Below, piece by piece: positions 1,499 through 30,552 of a stretch of 34,437 nt of DNA. The position numbers and the translations under genes were made by a program. Location: assembly GCA_016191645.1 (NCBI GenBank), contig JACPVQ010000097.1, forward strand, positions 1 through 34,437. Direction: 5' to 3'. The notes under the pieces are model-generated. The model was not told where the DNA came from, did not search any database, and saw nothing but the letters and a program-made list of their open reading frames with translations. How positions within the stretch are numbered: the first letter of the stretch is position 1; each line of letters begins with the position of its first letter. Origin of the DNA: Candidatus Solibacter usitatus (lineage in GTDB: Bacteria; Acidobacteriota; Terriglobia; Bryobacterales; Bryobacteraceae).

Positions 1499-1806
1499 GT
1501 GGGGTCAGGTCTCCAGACCTGTCCCTATGGGCCTCGGGGCCCACGAATCGTGATGAAAACCGATGTGGGGTCAGGTCTCCAGACCTGCCGCGGGATCTCC
1601 AGATCCCGCATGGCCTCGCAAGAGGCCATCGGCTGCTTTGCAGCCGCCCGGGAGATTGCGATTACTTCCGGCAGAGCCGGTCTGGAGACCGGCTCGCAGA
1701 TCTGGAGATCTGCCCCACACAAACTCGGGGAATGTCCAAACTCGAGCCGCGGGATCTCCAGATCCCGCATGGCCTCGTCAGAGGACATCGGCTGCGTAGC
1801 CGTTTC
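1499..1806. repeat. Intergenic multi-hairpin repeat cluster A: partial unit at 1499, flank module F2 (1524-1564), near-complete unit A1 (1565-1718, inverted relative to B/C/D), partial unit A2 (1747-1803)
   Basis: gtggggtcaggtctccagacctg...gcgggatctccagatcccgcatggcctcgcaagaggccatcggctgctttgcagcc...gccggtctggagaccggctcgcagatctggagatctgccccac. Modules recur at 3.9, 6.4 and 30.3 kb. Confidence 0.93.
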
Positions 1807-1842
1807 TGAACCGCAGACCTGGAGTGACTGACTGGGGAATGC

Positions 1843-2697
1843 TTACCGTAGCCCTACTTCAATTGGCTCAGCCGTAGCCGCATCCGTACGAACCTCGGCA
1901 TCGGCGTGTCCTTGCACCAGCGTCACCGGATAACCGGCGGAGACCTCGCCCGCCACGGCGACCCGGAAGACTGCCTGATGCCGTGTTCCTCCGGCACAGT
2001 AGAGACGGATTTTTCGCGCCGCCAGGATGTCCCTCATTCCGCATGTTACCGCCATGGGCGGAATGGCCTGCGAATCGCCGCCCGCCGAATGGATGCTCTG
2101 CACAACGATGGAGTCGTCGCCCAGAGGCAGCACGCGCGTCAGAGATTGCCGCATCTCCTCGACGCTGACCCGGTTCCACCGTGAAATCACCGGCTCATTG
2201 AAAGCGACGTGGCCGTGATAGCCGATGCCGCCGAAGCAGCAGTCAGCGCCTCCCACGCGCTCCAGTTTCTCGCTGAATTCGTCGATGCGAAAGGGATGCG
2301 GAGCCACGTGTTGTTCAGGCGGCATCGCCAGCAACGGATCAATCTTCGCAAACAACTCGCTCTTGAGAAAACCGGTGAAACTCAGCGCATGATCTTCCGG
2401 AATCAAGCGCCCCTGCCAGTCCAGAAACTCGTCCATTTGAAATACCCAGACATTGCGCCAGGAAAGTCTCTCGCGATTTGTGATCTCCACCAGCAGAGGA
2501 TATTGCTTCACCGGGCCCACGGGGAGAATCAATCGCGCCGCGCGGTCCTCTTCATTCGCTCTCCGGATCTCATCCGCAATCGTTCGCGCGAAGTCCGCGA
2601 GCAATGCGGGGATGTCCGCGAACAACCGGAAAGGGATGCGCGCACGGCGCTGCAATTCCTCCACGGGAAGGCTCATCAGCACGGCGTGGTCCATCAT
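1843..2697 (-). CDS. Glucosamine-6-phosphate deaminase/isomerase-like protein (NagB superfamily)
   Basis: Translated motifs VFQMDEFLDWQGR and FGGIGYHGHVAFNEP match the NagB family layout. Confidence 0.85.
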   Translation of the reverse strand: MMDHAVLMSLPVEELQRRARIPFRLFADIPALLADFARTIADEIRRANEEDRAARLILPVGPVKQYPLLVEITNRERLSWRNVWVFQMDEFLDWQGRLIPEDHALSFTGFLKSELFAKIDPLLAMPPEQHVAPHPFRIDEFSEKLERVGGADCCFGGIGYHGHVAFNEPVISRWNRVSVEEMRQSLTRVLPLGDDSIVVQSIHSAGGDSQAIPPMAVTCGMRDILAARKIRLYCAGGTRHQAVFRVAVAGEVSAGYPVTLVQGHADAEVRTDAATAEPIEVGLR

Positions 2698-2703
2698 CGT
2701 CCT

Positions 2704-3918
2704 ATGCTAAACAAAATGGACCCGCAATACACCAAGACTCGTTGGGGCGTTCTTGCGCTCCTGTTTCTTTCCATCCTGGTCAACCTTTTGGATCGCCAGG
2801 TCTTGGCGGTGGTCGCGCCGGTCCTGCGCGATGAACTCCATCTTTCCAACACCCAATACTCCTACATCGTGACCGCGTTCATGCTGGGGCTGGCGTTGAT
2901 GCAGGTTCCCTCCGGCATGTTGATCGACAAGATCGGTCCTCGCATCGGCCTCTCCATCCTCATGATTTGGTGGTCCGCTGCAAATGCCCTGCACGCACTG
3001 GCGCGAACCCTGGGGCATTTCATCGGCCTTCGATTTCTTTTGGGAGCGGGTGAATGCGGCAACTATTCGGCCGGAGTGAAAGTAATCTCACAGCGCTTCC
3101 CGCAGAACGAACGCGCGCTCGCCGGAGGAATCTTCAACAGCGGTACGGTGATTGGATCTTTTCTTGCTCCCTACTTCATCGTCAGCATCATGAACGCGTA
3201 CGGATGGCGATGGGCGTTTGTGCTTCCCAGCGTTTTGGGATTGACGTGGCTGGTGCCGTGGCTGCTGTTTTACCGCGATCGCGAATCGGCTTCGCAATCC
3301 GCCTCCGAACCGGCCGTTCCGCTGCTGCCGTTATTGTCGATGCGCCAGGTTTGGGGCGCGATGTTCATCCGCGCATTCATGGGCCCGGCGCAGCATTTCT
3401 ACTGGAACTGGTTGCCGGAGTATCTGAAACGCGAACGTCACTTCTCCATGGATATGATCGGCAAGTATGCGGGCATTCCGTTCCTTTTTGCCGGTTTGGG
3501 CAACCTCGCGGGCGGACTGTTCGCAGGCTATCTCATGCGGAAGGGTCTTAGCGCCGATGCCACGCGCAAGATCATTTTCGGGTTTTGCTGCACGCTCTGT
3601 TTGATCAGCAGCGCCGTGCCCGCCGCGCCGGGAGAGATCTCCGCCATGGCCATGATCTGCACGGCGACATTCGCGCTGGGGGCGGGCGTATCGAATCACA
3701 TCGCACTGCTCACCGATCTGTTTTCTCCACGAGTGATGGCGCGCATGACGGGGCTTGCGGGGATGTGCGAAGGGGTTGTGAACATCGCCGTGACTTTGGC
3801 AACGGGCCGAGTGGTGGATAGCTTCGGATACGTTCCTGTCTTCGCCGCGGCGGGTGTGATGCCGATGATCGCTCTTGCATCGTTGTTCTTTCTCATCCGG
3901 CGCGTGGAGCGCTTGTAG
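2704..3918 (+). CDS. MFS transporter, anion:cation symporter/hexuronate-transporter-like
   Basis: Frame of ORF 2209..3918; the first 165 codons are antisense to the NagB-like gene, so ATG at 2704 (MLNKMDPQYTKTRWGVLALLFLSILVNLLDRQVLAVVAPVLRDEL) is preferred. Many TM segments. Confidence 0.9.
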   Translation: MLNKMDPQYTKTRWGVLALLFLSILVNLLDRQVLAVVAPVLRDELHLSNTQYSYIVTAFMLGLALMQVPSGMLIDKIGPRIGLSILMIWWSAANALHALARTLGHFIGLRFLLGAGECGNYSAGVKVISQRFPQNERALAGGIFNSGTVIGSFLAPYFIVSIMNAYGWRWAFVLPSVLGLTWLVPWLLFYRDRESASQSASEPAVPLLPLLSMRQVWGAMFIRAFMGPAQHFYWNWLPEYLKRERHFSMDMIGKYAGIPFLFAGLGNLAGGLFAGYLMRKGLSADATRKIIFGFCCTLCLISSAVPAAPGEISAMAMICTATFALGAGVSNHIALLTDLFSPRVMARMTGLAGMCEGVVNIAVTLATGRVVDSFGYVPVFAAAGVMPMIALASLFFLIRRVERL

Positions 3919-4052
3919 GGCAGAGCTCCAGCTCTGCGAGACGGTCTCCAGACCGTCTCTGCCGGCAGTGATCGCAATCTCCGATGACGGCTGCGTCGCA
4001 ACAGAAACGGCTGCGTTGCAGCCGATGGCCTCTGATGAGGCCATGCGGGGTC
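3917..4052. repeat. Intergenic multi-hairpin element B (right end degenerate)
   Basis: gggcagagctccagctctgcgagacggtctccagaccgtctctgccggcagtgatcgcaatctcc...ggctgcgttgcagccgatggcctctgatgaggccatgcggggtctggagatttt. Same module order as the other copies. Confidence 0.9.
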
Positions 4053-4060
4053 TGGAGATT

Positions 4061-6202: not shown

Positions 6203-6208
6203 TGTGCC

Positions 6209-6401
6209 ACTACTCTCTGAAATCTTTCCAAGCCGCGAAGATTTCCTTGGGTTGCGGTTCCGCTGCCATGTACTACTACTCTGTAGAATCTTCCCAATTT
6301 GCGAAGATTCCCTTTGGTTGCGGCTGCGCTGCTCCGTACTACTAGACTTTGAAATCTTCCTAGGCTGCAAAGATTCTCTTTGGTTGCGGCTGTGCTGCCA
6401 T
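6209..6401. repeat. Three tandem 66-bp repeats, each with an internal inverted repeat (GAAATCTT...AAGATTTC type), upstream of hemQ
   Basis: Anchor ggttgcgg recurs at 6250, 6316 and 6382 (spacing exactly 66). Stems: gaaatctttccaagccgcgaagatttc; gaatcttcccaatttgcgaagattc; gaaatcttcctaggctgcaaagattct. Confidence 0.93.
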
Positions 6402-6634
6402 GTGGGGCAGGCCTCCAGGCCTGCGAGGCGGTCTCCAGACCGCCTCTGTTCCAGCCCATAAGGTTAAGCTGGGTCTGGAGAACCTGATGCACGGTCGACA
6501 ACCCACCCACGGCAACTCCTGCGCGGCCGATGGCCTCTGGCGAGGCCATGCGGGATCTGGAGATCCCGCCGCAGATCTGGAGATCTGCCCCACATCGGTT
6601 TTCGTTATGACTCGTGAGACCCGGGGCCCATGGT
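6402..6634. repeat. Intergenic multi-hairpin element C (6402-6593) plus flank module F2 (6594-6634)
   Basis: gtggggcaggcctccaggcctgcgaggcggtctccagaccgcctctg...gccgatggcctctggcgaggccatgcgggatctggagatcccgccgcagatctggagatctgccccac|atcggttttcgttatgactcgtgagacccggggcccatgg. Confidence 0.93.
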
Positions 6635-30131: not shown

Positions 30132-30144
30132 GCTAAAAGCTTCC

Positions 30145-30305
30145 CTGTACTGCTCTTTGAAATCTTCTGCTGCTGAGTACCACTGCCCCTTGAAATCTTC
30201 TGATTCTTTGTACTACTGTCTGAAATCCTCTGCTGCTTTGTACTACTGCCTGAAATCTCTTGCTGCTTTGTACTACTGCTACTCTATGAAATCTTCTGCT
30301 GCTTT
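30145..30305. repeat. Five short tandem repeats, units spaced 30-36 bp, consensus tactactgcctgaaatcttctgctgctttg
   Basis: gaaatc core at 30159, 30192, 30222, 30252 and 30288, with gtactactg/tgctgctttg between. Confidence 0.88.
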
Positions 30306-30552
30306 GTGGGGCAGATCTCCAGATCTGCGAGACGGTCTCCAGACCGTCTCTGCCGGCAGCACGAAAATGCCCGATGCGTGATCTGCAGATCCTTCGGCAC
30401 GGTCGAAAGCCCACCCACGGCGGCCACTTCACGGCCGATGGCCTCTGACGAGGCCATGCGGGATCTGGAGATCCCGCTGCAGATCTGGAGATCTGCCCCA
30501 CAGAGCAGCACGGCCGCAACCAAAGAAAATCTTCGCATCCTAGGACTTCGGA
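30306..30552. repeat. Intergenic multi-hairpin element D (30306-30501) plus inverted F1 flank (30502-30552)
   Basis: gtggggcagatctccagatctgcgagacggtctccagaccgtctctgccggcag...gccgatggcctctgacgaggccatgcgggatctggagatcccgctgcagatctggagatctgccccac|agagcagcacggccgcaaccaaagaaaatcttcgcatcctagga. Confidence 0.93.

Follow-up and report, generated by a model that had tools for sequence, protein, structure and literature searches.

The closest described relatives of the repeat family reported here are systems in which hairpin repeats accompany the genes of REP-associated tyrosine transposases (RAYTs). The RAYTs described by Nunvar et al. (2010) were all gammaproteobacterial (PMC2817692). RAYT-like genes with long terminal repeats, some of which are double palindromic and some of which carry the motif GGGGWSAS, have been reported as TIRtrons or TIRYTs (Di Nocera et al. 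2013, PMC3733652); such TIR-associated transposases are reported from Acidobacteria (Koribacter, Terriglobus, Granulicella, and Acidobacterium), and some of the TIRs constitute repeat families. According to the summary contained in the same paper, GTAG-tagged REPs are cut by the Escherichia coli enzyme (PMC3733652). Approximately 600 hairpins associated with TnpAY1 class 3 have been recorded in one genome of Solibacter usitatus (Ten-Caten et al. 2018, PMC6006769).

The window (the whole stretch of 34,437 nucleotides analyzed here) was originally predicted to harbor four composite elements with the common module order H1-H2-middle-H3-H4-H5. Direct reading of the window confirmed that all four, designated A to D, are present and that their modules are ordered as described. 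These elements and their neighbors are as follows:

1499..1522, forward strand: extra terminal hairpin GTGGGGTCAGGTCTCCAGACCTG, joined to element A by a spacer and forming a BIME-like array with it
1565..1719, reverse strand: element A, a complete 154-bp copy in reverse orientation
1565-1588 (H5), 1590-1609 (H4), 1610-1629 (H3), 1674-1695 (H2), and 1696-1718 (H1), reverse strand: hairpins of element A
1746..1815, reverse strand: partial second element (H4, H3, and inner hairpin), linked to element A by a spacer
about 3915..4059, forward strand: element B, with a GTAG tag and a right end truncated in H4
6203..6400, forward strand: F2, a 66-nt repeat, in three tandem copies abutting element C
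6402..6593, forward strand: element C, a complete 192-bp copy
30306..30501, forward strand: element D, a complete 196-bp copy
30501-30545, reverse strand: F2 at the end of element D

The start sequence previously ascribed to all four elements is shared by A, C, and D (GTGGGGCAG), with B instead starting with GTAGGGCAG; likewise, the full module set is found in A, C, and D but not in B, which lacks an intact H4 and H5. In addition to the element at 1565-1719, cluster A comprises the flanking hairpin and the partial element. One terminal hairpin of element A carries the variant GTGGGGTCAGG. Each of the elements A to D displays the 5′ GT(A/G)G head and ensuing GC-rich palindrome typical of REP elements, and both forms of this head occur in the family, GTAG in element B and GTGG otherwise. 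Element B extends into the gene at 2209-3918, which encodes an MFS transporter, the TAG of the element's GTAG tag serving as the stop codon. Elements occur in either orientation, and the hallmarks of a BIME, i.e., a mosaic of palindromic units whose orientation alternates and between which spacers recur, were evident in cluster A (1499-1815) and in two arrays elsewhere (L015 and L024). Folding of element D as single-stranded DNA yielded −70.9 kcal/mol, compared to −36.3 ± 3.6 kcal/mol for shuffled sequences (z = −9.7), while element B reached a z score of −4.9 versus shuffles.

Of the 11 copies of the F2 repeat (TGTACTACTAGACTCTGAAATCTTCC...GGCTGTGCTGCTC) in a 412-kb sample, 6 lie within 4 nt of an element end, always in the same orientation relative to that end. 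It was considered as a part of the element and rejected in that role, as it adjoins only some ends and is also found alone; it is possible that F2 represents an insertion target or an outer BIME module. A tandem repeat of approximately 30 nt (CTGCTGCTTTGTACTACTGCCTGAAATCTT) at 30137-30303, directly preceding element D, has words in common with F2, and two more recurring spacers, ATCGGTTTTCATCACGATTCGTGGGCCCC (1527-1564 and 6595-6631) and ACAAACTCGGGGAATGTCCAAACTCGAG (1719-1745), join or border elements.

The terminal hairpin, GTGGGGCAGNNCTCCAGNNCTGC, was found in at least 284 exact matches (146 + 138) in the 4.47-Mb genome from which the window derives, while the reversed-pattern control gave none; further copies, whose count had been called for at the outset, are thus present, and at a number consistent with REP families, which usually exceed 100 copies. 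Among the 32 distinct complete sequences collected from this genome, the modal length is 153 bp (range, 101 to 243 bp), the unit being of essentially fixed size (approximately 153 bp) with perfect terminal inverted repeats of approximately 23 bp. Several copies are 97 to 99% identical to one another over H3 to H5, and several contigs of the assembly terminate at or near an element, as expected of a dispersed repeat.

A search of the same genome with the Y1 transposase family (PF01797) retrieved two genes, located on contigs C62 and C167, with hairpins of the present family and of a sister family, respectively:

contig C62 (locus L052), H1 19-41, H2 42-63, RAYT 72-650, then an inner hairpin and H3-H4-H5 to 735: RAYT-bearing element
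L053:2049-2154: sister family with TTCA/TGAA loops, beside the second RAYT

The C62 locus constitutes a complete H1-H2-[RAYT]-H3-H4-H5 element in which the RAYT gene occupies the place of the filler. A RAYT beside similar termini, which the original prediction had proposed to seek across the genome, was therefore found inside an element, and the REPtron arrangement of a RAYT gene between two inverted repeat copies is seen both here and in relatives. The protein encoded on C62 scored 83.1 bits against the NCBIfam equivalog NF047646 (REP-associated tyrosine transposases; cut-off, 80), and its histidines H107 and H109 (HUH motif, NHVH) and Y166 of the YI..NP motif are invariant in an alignment of 17 relatives. 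We take these three residues to be catalytic on the basis of what is known of the family. One copy of the family RAYT enclosed by the same ends was found in this 79% complete MAG. The second RAYT, on C167, adjoins a sister hairpin set with the loop TTCA in place of TCCA, of which the genome holds few copies, at least five of them tagged. The possibility that the filler of the short units represents a RAYT remnant was considered and rejected; the fillers bear no resemblance to the RAYT gene beyond approximately 12 nt beside H2, most of them scoring as shuffles do, and an origin of the short units by deletion from a RAYT-bearing copy is, therefore, without support.

The arrangement of a GT[AG]GGG tag followed by hairpin 1 and hairpin 2, often on both sides of the gene, is repeated at the RAYT loci of relatives. 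RAYT homologues are encoded by 72 of 150 genomes of the family, the best named relatives belonging to the Bryobacterales, Bryobacteraceae, and Solibacteraceae, which points to a Bryobacteraceae acidobacterium as the probable host, and the RAYTs of the Bryobacteraceae are flanked by similarly built double hairpins, each in its own sequence dialect. The tag and double hairpin were present at 24 of 31 family RAYT loci versus 6 of 818 control stretches, at 18 of 42 further named RAYT loci, and at 1 of 38 more distant loci, with a single tagged hairpin being present at some of the more distant RAYTs. Hairpins 1 and 2 on the same side have a common apex (similarity of 0.68 versus 0.37 when shuffled; 0/5,000), and their loops are identical in 15 of 56 cases, against 1.8 expected. 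The dialect of the window, characterized by TCCA termini, amounts to 284 termini in its own genome and 0 to 31 in each of the 149 other family genomes. The CCCT dialect is absent from that genome and reaches up to 188 copies in others, and all 12 genomes with at least five copies of it are RAYT positive (P = 9 × 10−5); for the CCCT dialect, repeat abundance thus tracks the cognate RAYT. Exceptions are genomes G082 and G152, which were negative in the RAYT search yet carry 6 to 11 TCCA-type termini.

According to a simple home-made gene caller, whose omissions include a real gene at window positions 1843-2697 and make all position counts approximate, 98 of 99 copies are intergenic, in line with the extragenic location of REP elements. 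The 79 copies that could be placed lie in 38 convergent, 37 tandem, and 4 divergent gaps, against 30, 60, and 44, respectively, among all 134 gaps; copies are accordingly rarer in divergent gaps (Fisher P = 10−6) and commoner in convergent gaps (Fisher P = 10−4). The median distance from a copy to the 3′ end of a gene is 58 nt. Among 31 intact copies, the strongest flank preference is a T before and an A after the element, and a target duplication of at least 3 bp, which had been sought as a mark of insertion, accompanies none.

Empty orthologous sites, also sought on the basis of the original prediction, were encountered in two cases. Orthologues of the gene at 2209-3918 end differently in nine congeners, eight of which lack such an element downstream of it, a comparison that covers only the 3′ end of the gene to the left of element B, as the right-hand gene is not syntenic in the congeners. 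In the ninth (G010, locus L209), an element of a different dialect follows the orthologue, hinting at reused insertion sites. The second case concerns a copy within a coding sequence:

G000:C10:31812-31912 (L185:2001-2101): 101-bp copy, in frame inside a gene for a YfhO-like membrane protein

YfhO-like homologues in tens of genomes align to approximately residue 365 and resume at approximately residue 406, and the 101-bp in-frame segment is missing from all eight usable aligned homologues.

The enclosure of a RAYT by the same ends, the intergenic location of the copies, the lack of target duplications, the vacant sites, and the compensated stems together identify the elements as non-autonomous and of the REP/BIME type. 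It is, therefore, proposed, with a probability of approximately 90%, that they belong, as non-autonomous members, to a REP/RAYT (REPtron) system of the Bryobacteraceae. This upholds the REP/BIME- or MITE-like reading offered originally, to which the GT[AG]G tag, the GC-rich palindromes, the hundreds of intergenic copies, and the RAYT inside one full copy all correspond. Each unit of approximately 100 to 200 bp, most often 153 bp, would carry at either end a GT[AG]GGG tag, a terminal hairpin (H1 or H5), and a further hairpin (H2 or H4) repeating its apex, with inner hairpins and a variable filler completing it. The RAYT, a predicted Y1-type HUH single-strand endonuclease, would act on single-stranded DNA, recognizing the tag together with the terminal hairpin and cutting and rejoining at these positions, whereby short units could be copied or moved in trans. 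The short units were probably moved by the RAYT in this manner, and for the C62 RAYT we infer binding, cutting, single-stranded intermediates, and current activity. A broader model, which we advance tentatively, holds that Bryobacteraceae RAYT ends consist of a tagged outer and an untagged inner hairpin with a common transposase-specific apex, that this apex or loop (TCCA, TTCA, CCCT, TTGG, and others) may serve as a recognition code evolving with the RAYT, and that the mobile unit may be the five-hairpin cassette rather than the single REP.

The strong folding of the elements and their position a short distance (median, 58 nt) downstream of gene 3′ ends, with few copies in divergent gaps, would also be expected of a structured RNA module or 3′-untranslated-region element, such as a terminator or mRNA stabilizer, retained for its RNA fold. 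This alternative, raised in the original prediction, is now considered very unlikely, since no Rfam family was matched (at the gathering score for the window and at E values of up to 0.1 for cluster A), the elements lie in either orientation, and a RAYT gene is found between these same ends. The stems likewise argue against it. Among 120 matches to CAGNNN-TCCA-NNNCTG with all Ns free, 117 were paired; of the 351 H1/H5 stem cells, 348 were Watson-Crick pairs, none G-T, and two A-C, although RNA would tolerate G-U, and recurrent changes on both arms represented Watson-Crick compensation. Such a pattern fits selection at the DNA level, or arm-templated correction, better than selection for an RNA fold. 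The perfect terminal inverted repeats of approximately 23 bp and the fixed unit of approximately 153 bp are equally reminiscent of a MITE derived from a DDE-type insertion sequence unrelated to RAYT, an explanation that is highly improbable and largely refuted by the lack of a target-site duplication in all 31 intact copies; moreover, each end is itself a GT[AG]G-tagged hairpin, and such ends enclose a RAYT here and in relatives.

A further explanation accepts the same REP/RAYT anatomy but holds that the RAYT has since become domesticated or fallen idle and that the repeats are relics of past spread kept by a host role, e.g., transcription punctuation. It is a refinement of the proposed REP/RAYT membership, from which it differs solely on present activity, and we regard it as possible, if doubtful. 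The single RAYT copy, the non-random position behind 3′ ends, and the description of RAYTs as stable single-copy genes (PMC6006769) are compatible with such relics, whereas the 97 to 99% identity of several copies over H3 to H5 and the limitation of the high copy number to one species in the sample suggest recent spread.

The significance of the REP/RAYT assignment lies in connecting a specific transposase with an abundant intergenic repeat from a soil phylum that has received little study. The dozens of RAYTs with hairpin ends of their own represent a natural series for the study of hairpin choice (by tag, stem, or loop), and the in-frame copy is a tangible example of a protein into which a repeat of this kind has entered. 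The repeat sequence itself is not mentioned in the cited REP/RAYT, REPIN, TIRtron, and TnpAY1 papers, and the fixed-size five-hairpin cassette, the apex common to both hairpins of an end, and the breadth across the Bryobacteraceae are without counterpart in that literature. Among named repeats, a match exists only at superfamily rank (REP/RAYT), Rfam having returned no family in the searches given above. Because REPtrons, REPINs, BIMEs, and double-palindromic TIRtrons precede it, the family is not an unknown kind of element.

In common with the REPtrons (PMC2817692), the family displays a GT(A/G)G head, a GC-rich palindrome, more than 100 mostly extragenic copies, a RAYT gene bounded by two inverted palindromic units, and compensatory changes that preserve the palindromes, but it differs in its two apex-sharing hairpins per end, its inner hairpins, and its acidobacterial host. 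TIRtrons (PMC3733652) similarly combine a RAYT-like gene with terminal repeats that are in part double palindromic, whereas the family described here has the GT[AG]GGG tag, hundreds of copies, and fixed-size five-hairpin units, the two being set apart by their description rather than by TIR sequences; the GGGGWSAS motif is fitted by GGGGTCAG of the element A variant and not by GGGGCAGR, and the GT[AG]G tag is present here, while TIRtron repeats are unrelated to GTAG REPs. TnpAY1 class 3 of S. usitatus (PMC6006769) shares a related host group and an HUH transposase, yet is defined by a CnGA foot and YV..EQ, in contrast to the GT[AG]G and YI..NP found here, as in class 2. REPINs (Bertels and Rainey 2011, PMC3116915) consist of two inverted REPs that form a non-autonomous mobile unit for which a RAYT acts in trans, as proposed here; a REPIN, however, is a REP doublet, whereas five hairpins, with at least three types of stem, make up the present unit. 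The principle is already covered by REPtrons, REPINs, and BIMEs, and the family is an Acidobacteria branch of the REP/RAYT system.
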